A DNA stretch of 64,000 nucleotides from assembly GCF_020966755.1 (NCBI RefSeq), contig NZ_JAJKFT010000010.1, forward strand, positions 496,001-560,000, given 5' to 3'. A program made the translations under genes and the position numbers. The notes under the pieces are model-generated. The model worked only from the letters and a program-made list of their open reading frames with translations. It was not told the DNA's origin and ran no database searches. Positions 49,448 to 60,498 of this stretch are shown here, in pieces. The DNA is from Blastopirellula sediminis. GTDB taxonomy: Bacteria; Planctomycetota; Planctomycetia; Pirellulales; Pirellulaceae. The stretch's first letter is position 1; the number at the start of each line of letters is the position of its first letter.

Positions 49448-51445
49448 ATGTTCATGCACCGCCGTCCGATGACAAGCGTCAAGCGATCGCTTTTCGCGTT
49501 CTTGCTCCTCGTCGTCGGCCTCCTGCTAACAAGCAGCGTCAGCTTCTCGCAGGAAGCGCGCACTTGGACTGACAGTACCGGCAAGTTCACGATCGTCGGT
49601 AAGCTCGCATCGCATGACGACAAGTCGATCCGCATCGAAAAGAGCGACGGCCAAGTGATCTCCGTTCCGCTCGACAAGTTGAGCACAGCGGATCAGACCT
49701 TCATCGCGAAGCTGGCCGAGTCCAATCCGTTCCAACCGGAGGACGAAAATCCGTTCAAGCAGGAAGAAGAAAGCCCGTTCCGCCCCGAAATGCCGGCGAC
49801 GCAAAAAGCCGCCGACGCAGATTCGGCGAAGGCCCCCTTCACAGCGTCCGCCGATGGCCAGCCGCGAGAGATCCAACTCGACTACGACGCAATTCGGAGC
49901 GTGTCGATGACGCCGACCAAGCTTATTTTTGGCGTCGACGTCACTCCAGCGGCAATTCCGAGTTTCACGGCCGATTCGATCCCCATTCGTTCTACCCTCT
50001 GCAAATGGGATGAAATGGTAGCGATGGCGGTCAATGGAAGCGGCCGCGTCGCTCTCAACTTTGAATGCAAAATGAGATCTCTCCGTTTCGCAAAGAAGGA
50101 GGGACTTGTCGAGGGAAATGTTGACGACATCATCAATCGTTTCGTGATTGCCGATGCGATCACCGGCAAAGTCGTCGGCAAAGGGATGTACGTCGGCGAC
50201 AAATCGTTTCGGATGTTGGCGCTACATGACGACGGCGTGCGCTTCGCCGTTCGCCGCAACGGATTTGGTTCAGGAAATTCCGGCGTTCTGGAACTCTGGG
50301 CGCTGGACGGCGCGGACTCCATCGTGCGAGGCTTTCAGGTCACCCCATTCGTCAAGAAGTCGAGGCTCGACGAGACCGATATCGAATGGGCGGAATTTGT
50401 CGGGGACCTGTTGCTTGTCGGAGCGTCGGAACGAGTCGTCGCGTTTCGAGTCGCCGACATGCAGCCGCAGTATGAATTCACGCTGAAAGGGAATCTGCAG
50501 ATTCTCCCCGACAAAAAGCATCTCGTCTTTTGGCGCGAGGACCAACTCGCCGTTCTCGAAATCGCCAGCGGCAAGGTCGTCTGCACGACGCCACTTAATT
50601 CGCTTTACTACCCGAGGCTGCAAGTCGATCCGACCGGAGAACGCCTGATGGGCGTTTCCCACTCAGAGCGAGAACTTTCGATCATCAGTCTCCGCGACGG
50701 CAAGCTCCTGTCGAAATTCGAGATCCCAGAGTCGACGCCGATCGAAGATGGCTTACTGCTGAATGATCGCTACTTGCTGTCGCCGAAAGGAGACTTGATC
50801 GACGTCCGGAGCTTCCGCAAGGTTTGGACTATCGCCGGCGCTCAGGCGATTCGTCTGTGCGGCGATCGGGCGATTTTTTACCGAAGTGAGCGTGACGAAG
50901 GTCCCGGAGCGGTCTTCTGTCGGCAATTGCCCGGCGAGGCGCTGTCGCAACGCCTTGATCAGTTGACGCCGCAATCGGACTTTTTGTGCTTGGAACCTGG
51001 GGCGAAAGTCCGCATCGACGTCACTGGAATTCCTGATCGGGACCAGAGAGAGCCGCTTCTCCAGTCTCTTTCTCGCAAGCTGGAAGCGAGCAGTTTTGTC
51101 GTCGACCCAATCGGTCCCGTCACCTTGCGAGCGTTGGTGGTCGATAAGGGGCCGGAAACGGTCAATTATCGTTCCGGTTTCGAGGAGGATGACGTCGTCA
51201 TCCACAAGTATGAGTCGAGGCTGGAATTCGTCGCCGAAGGAAAGGTCGTCTGGTACCGTTTCAGCGACAACATCCCGCGGACCCTGAAATTTGACGTAGA
51301 AGAAGGAATCAAGGCCGCCGCAGCCGAAGCAAGTCGCCCAAGCTACGAAATCTATCGTACCGTCTCTCTCCCGCAAAAAATGGCGGTCCCCAATGACGGC
51401 AAGGGATTCGGACAAACGAACGTTACCGTCACTGGGCTGGAATAA
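49448..51445 (+). CDS. SHD1-domain secreted protein, paralog 1
   Basis: 665 aa with a signal peptide (start MFMHRRPMTSVKRSLFAFLL, cut around SFSQE). It is followed at once by an SHD1 (SLA1 homology domain 1) segment, RTWTDSTGKFTIVGKLASHD to VPLDKLSTADQTFI (~36-82), a domain common in planctomycete secreted proteins. An acidic linker with NPFQPEDENPFKQEEESPF (~85-110) leads to a large beta-propeller-like part (~170-480; HDDGVRFAVRRNGF, FVGDLLLVGA, DKKHLVFWREDQLAVLE) and an alpha/beta end. The neighbour at 51626-53590 is a paralog over the full length. The role is unknown. Confidence 0.82.
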   Translation: MFMHRRPMTSVKRSLFAFLLLVVGLLLTSSVSFSQEARTWTDSTGKFTIVGKLASHDDKSIRIEKSDGQVISVPLDKLSTADQTFIAKLAESNPFQPEDENPFKQEEESPFRPEMPATQKAADADSAKAPFTASADGQPREIQLDYDAIRSVSMTPTKLIFGVDVTPAAIPSFTADSIPIRSTLCKWDEMVAMAVNGSGRVALNFECKMRSLRFAKKEGLVEGNVDDIINRFVIADAITGKVVGKGMYVGDKSFRMLALHDDGVRFAVRRNGFGSGNSGVLELWALDGADSIVRGFQVTPFVKKSRLDETDIEWAEFVGDLLLVGASERVVAFRVADMQPQYEFTLKGNLQILPDKKHLVFWREDQLAVLEIASGKVVCTTPLNSLYYPRLQVDPTGERLMGVSHSERELSIISLRDGKLLSKFEIPESTPIEDGLLLNDRYLLSPKGDLIDVRSFRKVWTIAGAQAIRLCGDRAIFYRSERDEGPGAVFCRQLPGEALSQRLDQLTPQSDFLCLEPGAKVRIDVTGIPDRDQREPLLQSLSRKLEASSFVVDPIGPVTLRALVVDKGPETVNYRSGFEEDDVVIHKYESRLEFVAEGKVVWYRFSDNIPRTLKFDVEEGIKAAAAEASRPSYEIYRTVSLPQKMAVPNDGKGFGQTNVTVTGLE

Positions 51446-51625: not shown

Positions 51626-53590
51626 ATGTCAGGGGCAAACATGCATACCCACTGCCATTCGGCCGGCTCGTTCCGGCTCCCCATCCGCACGTTTTTGCTT
51701 TCGCTGGCGGCCTTGCTGGTCGCCGGAAACGTCAGCTTCGGCCAGGAGTCTCGCACCTGGACCGACAGCACCGGCAAGTTCACGATCGTAGGAAAGATTT
51801 CGTCGAACGACGGCAAGACGCTCCGCATCGAAAAGAGCGACGGCAAGGTCGTTGCGATTCCGGTCGACAAGCTGAGCAAAGCGGACCAGGAGTTCCTCGC
51901 GAAAGCCGCCGCCGAGAATCCGTTCCAGGAAGAGGAAGCGAGTCCGTTTCAACCCGAAGCGCCGGCGATGAAAAACGATGACGCCGACGACGATCCATCC
52001 CCCGCCGCGGCCAGCGGCGAACCTCGCAACGTCAACATCCGCCTGAACAACGTTCGCAAAGTGGCGATGCAGCCGCAGAAGGATGAGTTCGGCATCGAAG
52101 TGACGCCCCCGGCGGCCGTCAAGTTTCGCACCAAGCCGACGAGCGTTCCTCCCACACTGCAGTTCTTCGATGGTCTCGATGAGATGGAGGTTAGCGCCAA
52201 CGGCCGCGTCTTGCTGAGCTTCGGGTGCGACGTTCGCCATATCCGCCGTGACAATCCCAGACTGGTCGAAGGGCTTACCGACGATCAGCGTATTCAGCGC
52301 TACGTGCTGATCGACGCCGCCAGCGGCAAGACTTTGTCGGAAGGGAAGTACGCCGGCGATTCGTACAAAGTCTTCGCGCTGCATGACGACGGCGTCCGCT
52401 TCGCCGTTCGCAAAACGGTCTGGGGCCATGGCAAGTCGGGGGTTCTCGAAATCTGGGCCTTCAACGGTCCCAAGACGATCCTGCGTGGGTTCCGCTTAGA
52501 GCCGTTCGCCGAGGTCTCCTGGGATCCTGAAAAAGACGTCGATTGGGCCGAATTCGTCGGCGACCGCTTACTGGTCGGCAACGGCAAAATTGTGATGGCG
52601 CTCAACGCCACCGACTACCGACCGCAGTACCAACTGGAAATGAACGGACGGCCGACGATCACGCCGGACAAGAAGCATGCGATCTTCTTTAAGGACAAGA
52701 ACCTGGCCGTGCTCGACGTCGCCACCGGCAAGATCGTTTGCGCCATGCCGTTCGACTCGAACTTCGCTCCCACGATGGGAATCGATCCGCAGGGGAAATC
52801 GCTCGTCTGTCTCTCGGGCAACGAACTGACGAAGTTCAACTTGCAGAATGGACAAGTCGAGATGCAATTCACGACCACCATGTCGGCGCAACAGGCCCGT
52901 GGGTTGATCGTGCTGAATGAGCGTTACTTTCTGACCCCCAATGGCGAATTGTTCGACATGCAAGATCAGATCAAGGTCTGGTCGTTCACCGGCGCCGCCA
53001 AGATTCGCCAGCTTGGCGATACGACCATTTTCTACAAGGGAGAAGGAAACCGAGCCGACGGCGCGATCGTCTGCCAACAGTTGCCCGGCGAAAAGCTGGC
53101 CGCTCACTTGGATCAGTTGACGAAGCAGCCTGGCTTTTTCTGCCTGGAGCCTGGCGTCAAAGTCCGGCTCGACGTCGAAGGACTTCCTGATCCGCAAAAG
53201 AAGCAAGAGATCCTCGCGTCTCTCTTCAAGAAGCTGGAAGCGAACGGCGCCATCGTCGATCCCAACGGCCAGGTGGTCTTGAAAGCGTCGGTCGAAAGCA
53301 AAGGACCGAAAGAAGTCCGCTTCTTCGGCGGCGGCAACGTCACCTTCCAAGAGTTTTTGTCAAAGCTGGAAATGACTTTCCAAGGAAAGACCGTCTGGTC
53401 GCGAAGCGGCAACAACATCCCCGGCATCTTGCAATATGACCAGGTCGAAGGGATGGCGGCCGCCGCGGCCAAACATAATCACCCCAGCTATTACCTCTTT
53501 GAACACGCGGTGATCCCCCGCAAAGTAGCCAGACCAGCGGAAGGAAACGAAGTTGGGGCGACGAAGGTTACGGTCAACGGCCTGCAATAG
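51626..53590 (+). CDS. SHD1-domain secreted protein, paralog 2
   Basis: 654 aa, a full-length paralog of the preceding gene. The ATG at 51626 is followed by a His-rich, then hydrophobic, leader (FLLSLAALLVAGNVSFGQ). The SHD1 domain spans RTWTDSTGKFTIVGKISSND to IPVDKLSKADQEFLAKAAAE (~36-85). The acidic NPFQEEEASPFQPEAP linker and the propeller with HDDGVRFAVRKTVWGHGKSG and FVGDRLLVGN follow, each aligning to paralog 1. A tandem duplication is evident. It may bind polysaccharide or protein partners at the envelope; nothing catalytic is visible. Confidence 0.82.
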   Translation: MSGANMHTHCHSAGSFRLPIRTFLLSLAALLVAGNVSFGQESRTWTDSTGKFTIVGKISSNDGKTLRIEKSDGKVVAIPVDKLSKADQEFLAKAAAENPFQEEEASPFQPEAPAMKNDDADDDPSPAAASGEPRNVNIRLNNVRKVAMQPQKDEFGIEVTPPAAVKFRTKPTSVPPTLQFFDGLDEMEVSANGRVLLSFGCDVRHIRRDNPRLVEGLTDDQRIQRYVLIDAASGKTLSEGKYAGDSYKVFALHDDGVRFAVRKTVWGHGKSGVLEIWAFNGPKTILRGFRLEPFAEVSWDPEKDVDWAEFVGDRLLVGNGKIVMALNATDYRPQYQLEMNGRPTITPDKKHAIFFKDKNLAVLDVATGKIVCAMPFDSNFAPTMGIDPQGKSLVCLSGNELTKFNLQNGQVEMQFTTTMSAQQARGLIVLNERYFLTPNGELFDMQDQIKVWSFTGAAKIRQLGDTTIFYKGEGNRADGAIVCQQLPGEKLAAHLDQLTKQPGFFCLEPGVKVRLDVEGLPDPQKKQEILASLFKKLEANGAIVDPNGQVVLKASVESKGPKEVRFFGGGNVTFQEFLSKLEMTFQGKTVWSRSGNNIPGILQYDQVEGMAAAAAKHNHPSYYLFEHAVIPRKVARPAEGNEVGATKVTVNGLQ

Positions 53591-53804: not shown

Positions 53805-56800
53805 ATGTCGTATTCGGGAAGACTGCGTCTGGCCGCAGTTAGTTGTCTGTTACTTTGCGCCGCTTCGACATTCGCCCAACGTCCGGCCGCTTACAAGCTT
53901 GAGATTCGCCCTCACTGGTTCGCCGGCGACGCCTACTGCTGGTACAAGAACGATCTCGCCGACGGCAAATCAGAGTACGTGCTGGTCGACGCCGAGAAAG
54001 GGGAGCGCCGCGCGGCGTTCGATCATGCTCGCCTCGCGACCGCGCTCGCTGCGGCCGGCGTTAACAACGCCGCGGCCGATCGGTTGCCGCTACAACGACT
54101 TTTCTTTTCCGACGACGCACAACAGATCTTCTTCCAGGCGGGGGACAAATCGTGGAACTGCGACCTGACGACCTACGCGCTGACCCCGGCCGACGCCGCA
54201 CTGTTTAAGACTGAACAAGAAACCGAACGCCGCATGACGCGCTCTCCGAGCGAACACTCGGAATCGTCGATGACGTTGACGTTTCGTAATCGTCTCAACG
54301 AACCCGTGGAGATCCTCTGGATCGACACCTCAGGCAGCCCCGCGCCGTACGGTATCCTCGGTCCTGGCGAAGAGCGGGCGCAACAGACCTACGCGGGACA
54401 CGTCTGGGAAGCGCGGACGCTCAAGGGAGAAGTCGTCTCCATCTTCAAAGCGGCGCGTGATGCGACCACCGCGACCATCCAGCGTACCGAGCGTCGCTTT
54501 CGGGGTGGTCCCTCACGCGGCGATCGTACGCCGCGCGACCGTTCTCCCGATGGTAAGTGGACGGCGTCGATTCGCGATGGCAACGTGATTCTTCGCAATG
54601 CCGAAAGCGGCGAAGAGACGGCCCTCACCTCCGACGGAGACGTCCAGGTTTCGTACGGTCAGTTGCAATGGTCGCCTGACTCGCAGACGCTGATCGCGAT
54701 GAAGATCACCCCTGGCGATCGAACGGAAGTCCATCGCGTCGAGTCTTCTCCCAAGGAAGGTGGTCAGGCCCGACTGCATACCGATCGTTATCCTCTTCCC
54801 GGCGACAAGTTCGACGCGTTCAAACTGCACCTGTTTGACGTCGCCAAAAAGCAGGAGATCCCCTGCGACGCCGATGCGGTCGACTTCGGCATGCCGCGGC
54901 TCCGCTTTCATGGCGAAACGGCGACCTACGAGCAAGTCGATCGCGGGCACCAACGTTTCCGCCTGGTCGAAATCAACTTGCGGACCGGCGGCGTTCGCAA
55001 TCTGGTGGACGAAAAATCGAAGACGTTCATCTGGACGATTCATACCGAAGGGAATGGCGTTCGCCCGATCACGTGGCTCGGCGATGATGAGTTCATCTAC
55101 TGCTCCGAACAAGATGGCTGGCGGCATCTCTATCTGTACGACGCCAAGTCGGGCCAGCTGAAAAACCAAATCACCAAAGGAGAGTGGGTCGTTCGCGGCA
55201 TCGATCGGATCGACGAAGAGTCGCGACAAATGTGGTTTCACGCCAGCGGCATGAACGCGGGACAAGATCCCTACTTCGTGCAATACTACCGCATCAATCT
55301 CGACGGAACCGGCCTGACGGCGCTGACCGACGGGAACGGCACGCACGATATTCACTACTCGCCAACCAGCAAGTATCTGATCGATCGCTACTCGCGCGTC
55401 GACATGCCGCCGAAGCACGAGCTGCGCCGTGCGAGCGACGGGTCGCTCGTCTGTGCGCTCGAAGAGGGAGACATTTCGCAGCTGCTTGCGGATGGCCTCC
55501 GACTACCGCAGGCGTTCGTCGCCAAAGGACGTGACGGCCAGACCGACATCTGGGGCAACATCTACTTGCCGCGCGACTACGATCCGATCAAGAAGTACCC
55601 GGTGATCGAAGACATCTACGCCGGACCGCATGACTTTCACACTCCCAAGAACTTTAGCACGCGGGAATACTATCGCGATTTGCATGACCTCGGTTTCATC
55701 GTCGTGAAGCTCGACGGGATGGGAACCGCCGGTCGCTCGAAAGCGTTTCATGACGTTTGCTTTCATAACCTGAAAGACGCCGGCTTCCCGGATCGCATCG
55801 CGTGGTTGAAAGCGGTCGCCGAAAAAGAGCCGGGGCTCGATCTGTCGCGCGTCGGCATCTACGGCACCTCGGCCGGCGGACAGAACGCCGCTGCGGCGGT
55901 GCTGTTCCATCCCGACTTCTACAAGGTCGCCGTCGCGTCATGCGGGTGTCATGACAACCGGATGGATAAGGCTTCGTGGAACGAACAATGGATGGGCTAT
56001 CCGGTCGGTCCGCAGTACTCGGCCTGCTCGAACATCGACAACGCCGCCAAGCTGCAAGGTTCGCTGATGCTGATCGTCGGCGAGATGGATAGCAACGTTC
56101 CGCCGGAGTCGACGCTTCGTTTCGCCGATGCGCTAATCAAAGCGGACAAAGATTTCGATCTGTTGGTCATCCCAGGCCTGGGACATTCGGATGGCGGTTC
56201 CTACGGCCGCCGTCGTCGCAATCAGTTCTTTGTCGAACATCTGCTCGACGAGAAACGTCCCAACCACAACGCCCAGACGAAAGCCCCGCAGCCGGACTAT
56301 GCGATCGACTGGAAGCGAATCGAAGGCGCCGCCAATCGGGTCGGCCGGCTCACCGAACGTTTCAATGCGGACCAGGGAAGCCTCCGTCGCCGCTACACGC
56401 TCCGCGAATCTCCCGCTCGTCAGCAGCGGATGCTCAGTTTCTACAGCGATTGGCTGAAAAAGCTCGACGCGTACGACGTGAAGAACCTGACGCCGGAAGA
56501 ACAGGAGCCATTCGCCCACTTGCGTGGCGAAGTCGCCTCTCGCTTGGACGAAGTCGCCAACGACCAGCGTGATTCGACCGAGTTGGCGGAGCTCTTCCCC
56601 TTCGCCCCGACGATCATTCCGCTGGTCGAAGCCCGGCAAGCGTTTGAAAAAATCGATCCGCAACAAGCGGCGGCCGACGTCGTGCGCATCGCCGAGCAAA
56701 CCGAAATGGCCCGTCAGCAAATCGCTCCCAAGTTGGCTTCGTACGAACCGCGACAGGTCGTCTCGGCCTATCACCGCGCGATGCGATTGCAAGCGGCGCT

Positions 56801-58358
56801 GTTGGAATGGTATCAATTCTACGACAGCTACGATCCGCTCTTCACCTGGTGGGTGAAACAGCCGATGGCCGACGCTGAGGCGAAACTGACCGCCTACGTC
56901 GAATTGTTGAAATCGGCTGCGCCGGAACAAAAAGAGAACGACGTGAAAATGGCGAGCCCTGCGCCGGACGATGCAGCCCTGCAAGCGATTGTCGCCGCCG
57001 CTCCGGCGGTGCAAGACGCACCGGCGATGGAGCCGCTCTTGGCGCCGCCGGTCGGACGTCTGGAAGCGGCGATTCGCGTCTATCGCCAAGACGCTTCACA
57101 CTGGGGCGGGCGACGCAACAAGGAGATGAGCGACAGCGAACGTGCGGCGATGTTCGCCCAGTGGCGGGAAACGCTCGATCAATTCCAATTCGAAAGCCTC
57201 TCGCATGACGAGCAGATCGACTACGTCCTCTTCAAGAATGAACTCGACTATCAAATCCAACTCGCTGATCTAAAGAGCCGCGGCGTCGATACGCTTGGTT
57301 CGGAAAGCGCTGACGAAAGCGGCATCAAGGGAATCCCCGTTGGACGCGAGCGACTGTTGCTCGAACTGCAGCACGAGATGATTCCCTACTCGCCCGAACA
57401 ATTGATGGAAATCGCTGAGCAGGAATATGCCTGGTGCCGCGCTGAGATTTTGAAGGCGTCGCGCGAGATGGGCTGCGGCGACGATTGGCAAGCGGCGGTC
57501 GAGAAGGTGAAGCGGATGCATGTCGCCCCTGGCGAGCAGCCGCAGTTGATCAAGATGCTCTCTGACGAAGCGATCGCGTTTTTGAAAGAGCAGGAGCTGA
57601 TGTCGATTCCGCCGCTCGCCGAAGAGACCTGGCGGATGGAAATGATGACGCCGGAGCGGCAGCTCGTGAATCCCTTCTTCACCGGCGGCGAAGTGATCAG
57701 CGTGTCGTTTCCGACCGACACGATGACGCACAAAGACAAGCTGCAAAGCCTGCGCGGCAACAACATCCCGTTCGCCCGCGCGACTGTCCATCACGAACTG
57801 ATCCCTGGCCATCACATGCAGGGCTTCATGAACGATCGCTATCGCTCCTATCGCGAAACGTTCCGCACGCCCTTCTGGCTAGAAGGCTGGGCGCTCTACT
57901 GGGAAATGCTCCTCTACGACAAGGGCTTTCCCAAGTCGCCTGAAGATCGGATCGGCTTCCTGGTCTGGCGTTCGCATCGTTGTGCGCGAATCACCTTCTC
58001 GCTCGGCTTTCACCTGGGCAAGCTGACGCCGCAGCAATGCGTCGATCTGCTGGTCGCGCGAGTTGGCTTTGAACCAGCGAACGCCGCGGCCGAAGTGCGG
58101 CGTTCGGTCGGAACCGGCTATCCGCCTCTTTACCAGGCAGGCTACATGCTCGGCGGCTTGCAGTTCCGTTCGCTCCATCGCCAGCTGGTCGATTCAGGCC
58201 AGATGACCGATCGCCAGTTCCACGACGCAATCATGCAGCAGAACTTCGCCCCGGTCTCGCTAGTCCGCGACATCCTGATGCAAAAAGAACTGACCGCCGA
58301 ATATCGCCCGGCGTGGAATTACTACGAGTTCGAGAAAACGGAAACGGCGGCGAATTAA
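53805..58358 (+). CDS. S9 prolyl-oligopeptidase with VHL-beta domain fused to DUF885 metallopeptidase
   Basis: 1517 aa from the ATG at 53805 with RBS GTAGGAG; the frame open from 53652 adds only unconserved residues. A signal peptide covers ~1-24 (MSYSGRLRLAAVSCLLLCAA). Residues ~155-212 match a von Hippel-Lindau beta domain: LTFRNRLNEPVEILWIDTSG, then PYGILGPGEE and YAGHVWEARTLKGE. A DPP-IV N-terminal propeller follows (~235-585). The S9 hydrolase domain (~590-830) keeps the triad: S689 (GTSAGG), D762 (GEMDSNVP) and H794 (GLGHSDGG). After a helical linker the DUF885 domain (~1085-1510) contains HHELIPGHH (H1330, E1331, H1336) and EGWALYWEM. Two separate peptidases in one periplasmic chain are rare. 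Confidence 0.9.
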   Translation: MSYSGRLRLAAVSCLLLCAASTFAQRPAAYKLEIRPHWFAGDAYCWYKNDLADGKSEYVLVDAEKGERRAAFDHARLATALAAAGVNNAAADRLPLQRLFFSDDAQQIFFQAGDKSWNCDLTTYALTPADAALFKTEQETERRMTRSPSEHSESSMTLTFRNRLNEPVEILWIDTSGSPAPYGILGPGEERAQQTYAGHVWEARTLKGEVVSIFKAARDATTATIQRTERRFRGGPSRGDRTPRDRSPDGKWTASIRDGNVILRNAESGEETALTSDGDVQVSYGQLQWSPDSQTLIAMKITPGDRTEVHRVESSPKEGGQARLHTDRYPLPGDKFDAFKLHLFDVAKKQEIPCDADAVDFGMPRLRFHGETATYEQVDRGHQRFRLVEINLRTGGVRNLVDEKSKTFIWTIHTEGNGVRPITWLGDDEFIYCSEQDGWRHLYLYDAKSGQLKNQITKGEWVVRGIDRIDEESRQMWFHASGMNAGQDPYFVQYYRINLDGTGLTALTDGNGTHDIHYSPTSKYLIDRYSRVDMPPKHELRRASDGSLVCALEEGDISQLLADGLRLPQAFVAKGRDGQTDIWGNIYLPRDYDPIKKYPVIEDIYAGPHDFHTPKNFSTREYYRDLHDLGFIVVKLDGMGTAGRSKAFHDVCFHNLKDAGFPDRIAWLKAVAEKEPGLDLSRVGIYGTSAGGQNAAAAVLFHPDFYKVAVASCGCHDNRMDKASWNEQWMGYPVGPQYSACSNIDNAAKLQGSLMLIVGEMDSNVPPESTLRFADALIKADKDFDLLVIPGLGHSDGGSYGRRRRNQFFVEHLLDEKRPNHNAQTKAPQPDYAIDWKRIEGAANRVGRLTERFNADQGSLRRRYTLRESPARQQRMLSFYSDWLKKLDAYDVKNLTPEEQEPFAHLRGEVASRLDEVANDQRDSTELAELFPFAPTIIPLVEARQAFEKIDPQQAAADVVRIAEQTEMARQQIAPKLASYEPRQVVSAYHRAMRLQAALLEWYQFYDSYDPLFTWWVKQPMADAEAKLTAYVELLKSAAPEQKENDVKMASPAPDDAALQAIVAAAPAVQDAPAMEPLLAPPVGRLEAAIRVYRQDASHWGGRRNKEMSDSERAAMFAQWRETLDQFQFESLSHDEQIDYVLFKNELDYQIQLADLKSRGVDTLGSESADESGIKGIPVGRERLLLELQHEMIPYSPEQLMEIAEQEYAWCRAEILKASREMGCGDDWQAAVEKVKRMHVAPGEQPQLIKMLSDEAIAFLKEQELMSIPPLAEETWRMEMMTPERQLVNPFFTGGEVISVSFPTDTMTHKDKLQSLRGNNIPFARATVHHELIPGHHMQGFMNDRYRSYRETFRTPFWLEGWALYWEMLLYDKGFPKSPEDRIGFLVWRSHRCARITFSLGFHLGKLTPQQCVDLLVARVGFEPANAAAEVRRSVGTGYPPLYQAGYMLGGLQFRSLHRQLVDSGQMTDRQFHDAIMQQNFAPVSLVRDILMQKELTAEYRPAWNYYEFEKTETAAN

Positions 58359-58447: not shown

Positions 58448-60283
58448 CTAACGTCCCAGAACCGGCTCGAGCCACATCGCCCAGTCGTTGTCCTTGCCGT
58501 CGCCGCCATCTTCGACGACCAGTTCCAGCCGTGCGACGTCGACCACTTCGACCCAGAAGTCATGTAGCCGCCCTGGTTCGATCTTTGGGCTGCGGTAGAG
58601 TTCTTTGCCGTCGGCGTTGATCACGAAGACGACCGAGCCGCGCGTTCCGGCGATGCCGACCGTTCCCGAGAAATTCTGCCAGGCGCCTCCCAGGTCGTAC
58701 GTATGCTGCGCCGGAGCATGCGCCCAAATGCCGTGGCGGAAAATTCGGCCGCGAGCTTCCAGCAGCAGTTGATCGTTTGGAGCGTGATCGTAGGCGGGAG
58801 GACCATAGCCGACATGCGCCGTCTCCGGTTGGCAATCGGAAAGCGGAACTTCGGTCACTTCCTTCGGCACGTAGAGAGGCGAGATGTGGGGACGTTTCGC
58901 TTCGCGCGGCGCCGCCAAACGCTTGGCGACTTCGGCGACCAGCGAGTCGCCAGAGCCTTGCAGCTTCTCGCAAATCTCAGCAATCTGCTTCTTGTCGCGC
59001 GACTTGACCGCTTCGATCAGCAGCGTCAGTTCCAGCTTTTGCTGGATCGTGTGCAGCTGCGGCTTCCCTTTTCCATCGGTCGTCAGGTCAAAGCCCCAAC
59101 GCGAGCTGTCGCCGGCATAGGTCGAAGCGGCGCCGTTCACCTGGCAGACGTCGATCCGAATCCGGCCGTGAAAATTCGGCTTCAGCGGACGATAGCGCAA
59201 CGTGAACTCGCCCGCTTCGTTCGGCACGGCGACCGCGGTGAACGCGTCATAGTTGCTATGTCCGTCCGGATCGAGATATCCGAGCACGGCATAGGGGGGC
59301 GGATTCGCCGTAACGCGACCGGTCAGTTGCACCGCGCCGTCCACTTCTTCAACCTTGACGATGTCGACCTTCGCGTCGCTCTTCGCGCTGAGTCCTTTGA
59401 TCGAACCGGAAAACTGCGGGTGCGAAGCCAACTTCAAGCCATTGGCCAACGTCAAGAAGGTGCCGCGACCTTCGCCGCGAAGGTTGTCGCCGTAGCTGCG
59501 ATTGCCCGATCCCATCAGCGCGGTGCCGAACATCTGCTGTTCGTCCGGACGCTGCTGACAGTGGGGGAGTCCCAGCGCATGTCCCAGTTCATGGCAGACG
59601 CCGCCGATGAAAATTGAGTTGTACTTGCCGATCGAGATGTTTCCGTACTGACCGTCGCGAACGTTGTCTCCTTTGTTGGAAAGCGACTGCAAGTCGAGAA
59701 TCGGCGAATCGACTTGCCACGCGTTGCCGCCAGTCGGCGTTCCGCTAGCGTAGTAGGGACTGTTCTGGCGAATGGTCCGCTCTTCCGGATTCCAGTTCGA
59801 CATGTTGCAGAAGATGACGATCGTCTCTTCGTCCGGATTGATTCCGGCCTCACGCAGAGGAGGAACGCACTCTTGGCGAATGCGTCGACCATCGGGCGTG
59901 TCGTATTGAGCGTAAGGACCTTCCCCCGTCACGACATGAATGTTAACCAGGCCGTCCTCTTTCAGATCAAACTGAATCGTCCGCTCGCCGAACCCGAGTC
60001 GCTTCATCTCGGTTGCGTAGAAGTTTTGGATATCGAGCAGGATCGCCGACAGACGCTCGCGATAGAGCGGGGCCGGTTCGCGATCGTTGGGAGTCCAGTA
60101 GACGACGTGCAGCTTGCGATTGCCGGCGACCGGTTCTTCTTGCTCCCACTTCTCCAGGATCTTCATCGCCTGGGGAACGAGCAGGTCAATCTCCTCTTGC
60201 GGAGTCGGATCAGCGGCCGCGACCAGCGACGCGAGGGTGATAACAAACGGAGTGCAAAACGCGACAATCTTGGTTCGCAGCAT
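58448..60283 (-). CDS. Secreted metzincin-type protease with NPCBM domain
   Basis: 611 aa from the ATG at 60283 (MLRTKIVAFCTPFVITLASLVAAA signal; earlier in-frame codons lack support). The catalytic domain (~25-300) contains the zinc motif CHELGHALGLPHC, H231-E232-x-x-H235-x-x-G-x-x-H241, the extended metzincin HExxHxxGxxH type. A beta domain follows (~320-410; TGRVTANPPPYAVLGYLDPDG). The C-terminal ~480-611 is an NPCBM carbohydrate-binding module (GHPPAYDHAP-like; EARGRIFRHGIWAHAPAQHTYDLGG and VVDVARLELVVEDGGDGKDNDWAMW). A glycoprotein-cutting or polysaccharide-bound protease is inferred. No regulatory site is seen. Confidence 0.85.
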   Translation of the reverse strand: MLRTKIVAFCTPFVITLASLVAAADPTPQEEIDLLVPQAMKILEKWEQEEPVAGNRKLHVVYWTPNDREPAPLYRERLSAILLDIQNFYATEMKRLGFGERTIQFDLKEDGLVNIHVVTGEGPYAQYDTPDGRRIRQECVPPLREAGINPDEETIVIFCNMSNWNPEERTIRQNSPYYASGTPTGGNAWQVDSPILDLQSLSNKGDNVRDGQYGNISIGKYNSIFIGGVCHELGHALGLPHCQQRPDEQQMFGTALMGSGNRSYGDNLRGEGRGTFLTLANGLKLASHPQFSGSIKGLSAKSDAKVDIVKVEEVDGAVQLTGRVTANPPPYAVLGYLDPDGHSNYDAFTAVAVPNEAGEFTLRYRPLKPNFHGRIRIDVCQVNGAASTYAGDSSRWGFDLTTDGKGKPQLHTIQQKLELTLLIEAVKSRDKKQIAEICEKLQGSGDSLVAEVAKRLAAPREAKRPHISPLYVPKEVTEVPLSDCQPETAHVGYGPPAYDHAPNDQLLLEARGRIFRHGIWAHAPAQHTYDLGGAWQNFSGTVGIAGTRGSVVFVINADGKELYRSPKIEPGRLHDFWVEVVDVARLELVVEDGGDGKDNDWAMWLEPVLGR

Positions 60284-60498
60284 GACTATTTCTGGCGAAG
60301 GTGGGGAGGGCAATCAAGGAAGGCAGGAGGCGGGTTCCGGACCGCCTACCGTTCATTCTACGTCCCACTTCATTTCCAGATAGTTTCTTCTCAACGCGGT
60401 TTGTCGCGACTTTCTCTCTATTAGGCCGCCATTTGCGCCAATTCCGCTCCCGTTTCTCAAGTTGGGGGTTCGTCTTTGCGGGAAAGGAGGGACGCCCG

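Follow-up and report, generated by a model that had tools for sequence, protein, structure and literature searches.

What does a VHL beta domain recognize when it sits inside a bacterial chain of peptidase-type domains? In animals, VHL serves oxygen sensing as the receptor for hydroxyproline, and targeted-degradation drugs use it as a handle. Analysis of a 64,000-nucleotide stretch of the Blastopirellula sediminis genome (contig NZ_JAJKFT010000010.1, positions 496,001 to 560,000; here called the window) revealed a gene in which such a domain had been predicted within an S9 peptidase that is fused to a DUF885 metallopeptidase. The original prediction described the product as a proline-targeting exopeptidase and proposed that its VHL domain may recognize proline-rich or modified substrates.

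Domain organization of the three-part protein

The gene is located at positions 53805 to 58358 of the window on the forward strand, including the stop codon. The stop-free frame (53805 to 58355) starts with ATG, encodes 1517 residues, and is matched by full-length related chains. From the N terminus to the C terminus, the protein comprises a signal-like stretch (residues about 1 to 25; 53805 to 53879), a propeller-like segment, the VHL beta domain (PF01847; residues 150 to 225; 54252 to 54479), the remainder of a DPPIV-type beta-propeller (DPPIV_N, PF00930; residues 231 to 536; 54495 to 55412), an alpha/beta hydrolase of the Peptidase_S9 family (PF00326; residues 626 to 805; 55680 to 56219), and a DUF885 metallopeptidase-like domain (PF05960; matched part, residues 1168 to 1489; 57306 to 58271), all encoded on the forward strand. 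The signal-peptide-like stretch was judged hydrophobic by eye, and on this basis the protein looks secreted.

All four domains scored above the curated Pfam cutoffs, with 151 bits for Peptidase_S9, 143.4 bits for DPPIV_N, and 143.8 bits against a cutoff of 32.4 for DUF885. Two unrelated peptidase-type families are thus combined in one chain, as had been proposed. The S9 triad (S689, D762, and H794) and the HHELIPGHH motif (residues 1329 to 1337; 57789 to 57815, forward strand) were found at the predicted places. The latter is a putative metal site that aligned with HEAIPGHY of PDB entry 3u24, one of three solved structures (3u24, 3o0y, and 3iuk) matched by the DUF885 domain at the sequence level. 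Three VHL-like words were likewise present in the predicted order (FRNRL, residues 160 to 164; PYGILGPGEE, residues 181 to 190; YAGHVWEA, residues 196 to 203).

An AlphaFold model of residues 27 to 830, which includes the propeller, was generated from 54 aligned rows, namely, the window protein and a hand-picked 53 of the 89 rows of its relatives, and reached a mean pLDDT of 89.5 and a pTM of 0.83. The best PDB matches of this model were DPP IV and prolyl tripeptidyl aminopeptidase. The secondary structure of the model placed the VHL insert between strands of the propeller part, and the linkers flanking the VHL domain on both sides were of low model confidence.

Identity and fold of the VHL beta domain

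In the full chain, PF01847 matched residues 150 to 204 with 33.8 bits (E = 3.5e-8; cutoff, 21), and an 84-residue VHL piece alone matched with 40 bits (E = 4.1e-10). Searching the PDB with this piece (phmmer, E up to 1) yielded 25 matches, 24 of which were VHL chains (E = 2e-6 to 4.8e-5); the single other match was an AP4A hydrolase (E = 0.31). The two PDB alignments inspected were gap-free. AlphaFold predicted a seven-strand sandwich for the piece, with a mean pLDDT of 87.2 and strands reaching to about residue 225. In the Foldseek comparison of this model with the PDB, all 50 of the 50 matches listed contained VHL, with TM scores (query) of 0.65 to 0.82, so the predicted sandwich matches the fold of the VHL beta domain. 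The chain gave nine Pfam matches (E up to 5), and no VHL-type family other than the beta domain, such as the alpha domain of pVHL that binds elongin C, was among them. These results confirm the presence of VHL, S9, and DUF885 in one chain.

Distribution of the architecture

The search for the same architecture in other planctomycetes recovered further copies of the three-part chain as open frames. Identity to the window protein was 74% in Blastopirellula marina DSM 3645, 78% in a second congener (G344), and 43% in Aporhodopirellula and Rubripirellula. The VHL domains of the latter two were seen via an iterated bacterial profile; for Aporhodopirellula, Pfam did not list VHL at E up to 1e-4, and the Rubripirellula call was made with the bacterial profile only. 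Within the genus, three other members were examined: the chain is present in two, one of which is apparently B. marina itself, whereas nothing in the third matched with an E value of 1e-60 or lower. More than 593 relatives were found in all, and the best 80 were kept. A frameshift or an assembly error joining two separate genes was rejected as the origin of the chain because five genomes carry it uninterrupted.

PF01847 matched in 45 of 294 genomes of the phylum at E up to 0.01 (43 above the cutoff) and in none of 14 control genomes at the same threshold; relaxing the threshold to E up to 1 gave matches below the cutoff in four controls. Of the 64 VHL places in this survey, the 34 that lacked a locus had theirs fetched later. 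A set of 123 S9 cores contained 47 with an N-side VHL domain alone, 5 with an N-side VHL domain and DUF885, 7 with DUF885 alone, 3 with a C-terminal VHL domain, and 61 with neither, numbers that are not frequencies, since some loci were cut at their ends or were fetched with the VHL model and one (L003) is a partial copy of the core in the window. VHL and DUF885 are therefore independent add-ons on S9 cores. In a quick tree of the 103 cores with 560 residues or more, 12 changes were needed to account for the VHL label (at least 8 of these fell on starred branches), and at least 2 were needed for the C-terminal form. The tree, together with the C-terminal occurrence, indicates that VHL is an add-on module of S9 proteins and not a relic. 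In 22 of 28 relatives that lack the domain, the alignment gap started at a point from residue 137 to residue 150 of the window protein; its end was at residue 228, likewise in 22 of the 28.

Three S9-VHL frames of 1378 to 1435 residues (L053, L057, and L039) carry a long C-terminal extension that matched no Pfam family with an E value of 1e-4 or lower.

Conservation of the hydroxyproline-pocket positions

The available text of two papers describes the hydroxyproline pocket of human pVHL as Trp88, Tyr98, Ser111, His115, and Trp117, to which one adds His110 (via its backbone) and the other Ile109 (PMC9528729, PMC6650433). The hydroxyl group of hydroxyproline contacts Ser111 and His115, and its carbonyl group contacts Tyr98, according to the text available from one of them (PMC9528729). 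Alignment with the PDB sequences assigned these positions in the window protein to W172 (54318 to 54320), Y182 (54348 to 54350), T195 (54387 to 54389), H199 (54399 to 54401), and W201 (54405 to 54407), all on the forward strand. The comparison of 64 distinct bacterial VHL domains hosted by S9 proteins revealed tryptophan at position 88 in 63, tyrosine at position 98 in all 64, threonine at position 111 in 63 (serine in the remaining one), histidine at position 115 in 62, and tryptophan at position 117 in 63.

These five columns were among the six best-kept of 49, with a mean identity of 0.984 versus 0.489, and identity outside the pocket was 34%. The pocket was complete in 60 of the 64 domains. 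The four exceptions were two replacements of His115 by alanine, both in C-terminal domains, one of Trp88 by tyrosine, and one of Trp117 by phenylalanine. Only N78 and Y98 were strictly invariant. Since loci found with a VHL model might be enriched in these residues, the count was repeated on a subset of 37 domains from loci fetched via the S9 part, in which the pocket was complete in 36, the same six columns came first, and the mean identity elsewhere was 36%; some bias remains in this subset, as its domains were still detected by a VHL profile. Among 41 N-inserted S9 domains, N78, W88, Y98, H115, and W117 were the only invariant columns of 49, at a mean identity of 37.6% elsewhere. Ranked by information over 57 bacterial domains (duplicate loci L003 and L004 left out), W88, Y98, S111, H115, and W117 took places 2, 4, 8, 6, and 1 of 53. 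The probability of finding all five within the first eight by chance is 3e-5 in a hypergeometric calculation, which ignores relatedness and structural causes. For all domain counts in this analysis, detection relied on an iterated profile whose seed was the VHL domain of the window protein, and strongly degenerate domains may have escaped it.

The positions around the pocket were less similar to those of pVHL. The window protein has glutamine at the positions of both Ile109 and His110. Among the 64 S9-hosted domains, the former was glutamine in 55 and the latter histidine in 42, the Phe91 position was variable, and the Pro99 position was mostly glycine. These differences, like the threonine at the Ser111 position, count against hydroxyproline binding. 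The proposal that the domain recognizes a modified proline is strengthened, because the positions that form the hydroxyproline pocket in human pVHL are the best-kept ones in the bacterial domains.

The same conservation might arise if the VHL domain were a structural spacer or a dimerization unit of the propeller, with the five residues kept for the fold. N78, which is not known to contact a ligand, shows the same degree of conservation as the pocket; the location of the insert between propeller strands, as judged from secondary structure, and the many S9 relatives that manage without the domain are also in line with such a role. It is nevertheless quite improbable, as homologous domains persist with single pocket residues changed (His115 to alanine or asparagine; Tyr98 to lysine, glutamate, arginine, threonine, or phenylalanine) and the corresponding residues of human pVHL form part of a ligand site (available text of PMC9528729).

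Hosts of the VHL domain

To survey the proteins that carry the domain, 109 domains were reduced to 100 distinct ones and, after removal of one cut-off domain (L171), to 99. The hosts were S9 proteins in 64 cases, frames with a HEF[AG]H motif in 10, sulfatases in 8, SASA carbohydrate esterases in 4, leucine-rich-repeat (LRR) proteins in 5, and other or unassigned proteins in 8, among which were F5/8C-NPCBM proteins and a protein kinase that has MORN repeats. Most S9 hosts were assigned by phmmer, the HEFxH hosts by their motif, and two LRR frames by resemblance; Pfam scans covered part of the frames. The kinase (L165, 2433 to 4154, reverse strand) carries its VHL domain at the C terminus and has a complete pocket (WYSHW). 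In several genomes, an LRR protein adjoins a SASA esterase and both carry a VHL domain lacking His115 (L148, L156, and L163; in L156, the LRR assignment does not come from a Pfam scan). The B. sediminis genome itself encodes a second VHL-like domain at the C terminus of a sulfatase (G000:C10, 1880548 to 1880691; L002/L116), with alanine at the His115 position. This domain was picked up by the iterated bacterial profile and scored 18.3 bits, under the Pfam cutoff.

In seven of the HEF[AG]H frames, the VHL domain lies behind the motif (L013, L014, L021, L022, L029, L031, and L034); six of these frames have about 400 to 460 residues and one has 633. L021 scored above the Pfam cutoffs of both ATLF (given here as a family name only) and Peptidase_M90; L013, L029, and L034 remained below the cutoff, and no peptidase model of Pfam matched L014 or L022. 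The pocket was complete in 8 of the 10 HEF[AG]H-hosted domains, and His115 was kept in all 10.

The range of hosts bears on a further explanation, in which the pocket is functional but its ligand is a different one (a glycan, for instance, or an unmodified peptide that is rich in proline or derives from a cell wall). The domain would then help extracellular planctomycete enzymes to bind or anchor in a general way, comparable to a carbohydrate-binding module. Sulfatases, SASA esterases, LRR proteins, and F5/8C-NPCBM proteins among the hosts would suit this explanation, and aromatic pockets suit sugars too. Its weak point is that His115 was replaced in 16 of 17 domains of sulfatase, SASA, and LRR hosts and kept in 72 of 74 domains of S9 and HEFxH hosts. 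On the domain tree, which is poorly resolved, His115 changes once, and the contrast between host classes is therefore a hint and not an independent statistic. Fisher tests of the pocket or of His115 against host class (p = 5e-5 and p = 1e-14) were set aside for the same reason. The replacements do show that the VHL fold survives without His115. We regard a different ligand as unlikely, though with an appreciable chance of being correct, and hydroxyproline binding as the preferred reading.

Catalytic parts of the S9 and DUF885 domains

The triad columns of the S9 part were invariant in the 54 aligned rows. In DPP4, the amine of the substrate is bound by Glu205 and Glu206, and the S1 pocket for proline is formed by Tyr631, Val656, Trp659, Tyr662, and Tyr666, according to the available text of PMC10420935. 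Alignment of the S9 part with 2d5l (prolyl tripeptidyl aminopeptidase) and with 5yp1 (DPP IV of Pseudoxanthomonas) revealed that the stretch carrying the Glu residues that bind the substrate N terminus is absent. At the S1 positions, onto which the human DPP4 numbering was transferred by hand, the subfamily has CGCHDNRMDKASWNEQWMG, corresponding in the window protein to A690, C715, N718, D721, and W725. All five were invariant in the 54 rows, so the replacement characterizes the subfamily as a whole, whether or not VHL is present. The subfamily also has GTSAGG where 2d5l and 5yp1 have GWS[YN]GG. With the Glu stretch absent and the S1 residues replaced, cleavage after proline and the release of dipeptides are not predicted. 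The descriptions as an exopeptidase and as a proline-targeting enzyme are thus not supported; of the original interpretation, the VHL domain and the two peptidase-type families were borne out, and the modified-proline proposal gained strength. The S9 unit may be an endopeptidase or have another specificity.

The same differences would fit an S9 unit that is an esterase or a binding-only relative of the hydrolases, with the VHL domain serving another reaction, a possibility that is compatible with the other readings. Searches of NCBIfam gave only matches far under the cutoff, to dipeptidyl-peptidase and esterase-type models. In its triad, propeller, and overall fold, however, the unit agrees with DPP IV and with prolyl tripeptidyl aminopeptidase, and VHL also occurs on frames with the HEFxH zinc-peptidase motif, which makes a nonpeptidase role improbable. 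A peptidase remains the preferred reading of the S9 unit.

DUF885 is a family of unknown function in Pfam, and its solved members carry only the names lipoprotein or uncharacterized protein. A metal-dependent peptidase activity of the domain in the window protein is accordingly putative. In a sister chain (L043), the DUF885 match covered nearly the whole profile.

Genomic context

The region around the gene was inspected for neighbors. A convergent gene (58451 to 60313, reverse strand) encodes a metallopeptidase-like protein with a Metallopep match of 34 bits in Pfam, the motif HELGHALGLPH, and an NPCBM domain; tblastn gave partial matches to it next to the S9 genes of B. marina (71%) and of G344 (85%). 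Directly upstream of the three-part gene are two similar genes with SHD1 domains assigned by Pfam (49448 to 51442 and 51626 to 53587, forward strand), which had no match in the B. marina locus examined at E up to 1e-10.

Elsewhere in the genome, a cluster was found for putative trans-4-hydroxyproline catabolism (L115, 4548 to 8715; G000:C4). Its epimerase matched models of 4-hydroxyproline epimerase best (394.9 bits, below the cutoff of 450) and is flanked by genes resembling D-amino acid dehydrogenase and the DapA family, with a divergent regulator present. This layout resembles that of known trans-4-hydroxyproline catabolism and suggests that the organism can use hydroxyproline. A search of the same genome for two families, 2OG-FeII_Oxy_3 and Collagen, gave no match at E up to 0.01, a result that only leans toward an outside origin of the hydroxyproline substrate over one made by the organism itself.

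Across the 294 genomes of the phylum, Pro_racemase was present in 14 of the 45 genomes with VHL versus 36 of the 249 others (one-sided p = 0.008), and outside the class of B. sediminis, in 8 of 39 versus 25 of 234 (p = 0.075), both with relatedness not removed. The co-occurrence is weak and confounded.

Proposed function

We propose, with about an even chance of being right, that the VHL beta domain recognizes substrates by binding 4-hydroxyproline, and possibly proline as well, in peptides, which it docks to the peptidase that hosts it. A near-identical pocket within a drifting remainder, on two unrelated peptidase-type hosts, is explained most simply if the same chemical group is bound as in animals. 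In the proposed sequence of events, the VHL domain would bind 4-hydroxyproline (or possibly proline) in a peptide from outside the cell, such as animal collagen or a hydroxyproline-rich protein of algae or plants, and would dock it to the peptidase that carries the domain. The S9 hydrolase would then cut the docked chain, and the DUF885 metallopeptidase may trim the fragments further, probably in this order.

A broader and more tentative view, to which we give somewhat less than an even chance, is that bacteria possess true hydroxyproline readers, VHL beta domains with the pocket known from animal oxygen sensing, on secreted serine peptidases and metallopeptidases, which would read hydroxyproline and then degrade its carrier without ubiquitin, and that animal VHL perhaps redeployed an older module that supplied hydroxyproline-bearing proteins to proteolysis. 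If the bacterial pocket binds hydroxyproline, this recognition step would be no animal invention, planctomycetes would have a targeted attack on collagen or on hydroxyproline-rich proteins of algae, and small soluble domains that bind hydroxyproline could serve as reagents. With the VHL ligands and peptides already at hand, hydroxyproline binding could be tested quickly.

Comparison with known systems

The bacterial VHL domain itself is already known, as the Pfam model finds it and one case, a hypothetical protein of Litorilituus sediminis, was assigned a VHL beta domain by sequence servers (available text of PMC9002001). Among the titles and abstracts listed from open-licence PMC papers, that one was the only one on a bacterial VHL domain, and none dealt with the VHL domains of planctomycete peptidases or with the pocket of such domains. 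The Litorilituus protein resembles the window protein in being bacterial and having a VHL beta domain; it differs in that the available text of PMC9002001 contains no mention of a peptidase and no comparison of the hydroxyproline pocket. New here is the conservation of the five pVHL pocket positions in aligned S9-hosted bacterial VHL domains.

With DPP IV and prolyl tripeptidyl aminopeptidase (PDB entries 2d5l, 5olj, and 5yp1), the window protein shares the propeller, the alpha/beta hydrolase, and the Ser-Asp-His triad, at 19 to 22% identity in the Foldseek alignments. It differs from them in the lack of the Glu stretch, the replaced S1 residues, the VHL insertion, and the fusion to DUF885. 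The solved DUF885 proteins (PF05960; 3u24, 3o0y, and 3iuk) share with it the HE-x-x-P-G-H motif and, at the sequence level, the C-terminal half, but in the window protein DUF885 sits behind an S9 unit.

Human pVHL recruits a ubiquitin ligase, whereas the window protein is bacterial, looks secreted, is fused to peptidase-type enzymes, and has no detectable alpha domain; the positions of Ile109, His110, Pro99, and Phe91 also differ in the bacterial domain. With the beta domain of pVHL (PF01847; PDB entries 1lm8, 1vcb, and 4awj), it has in common a gap-free sequence match over 53 residues, the same predicted sandwich (TM score up to 0.82), and the same five hydroxyproline-pocket positions, with threonine in place of Ser111.
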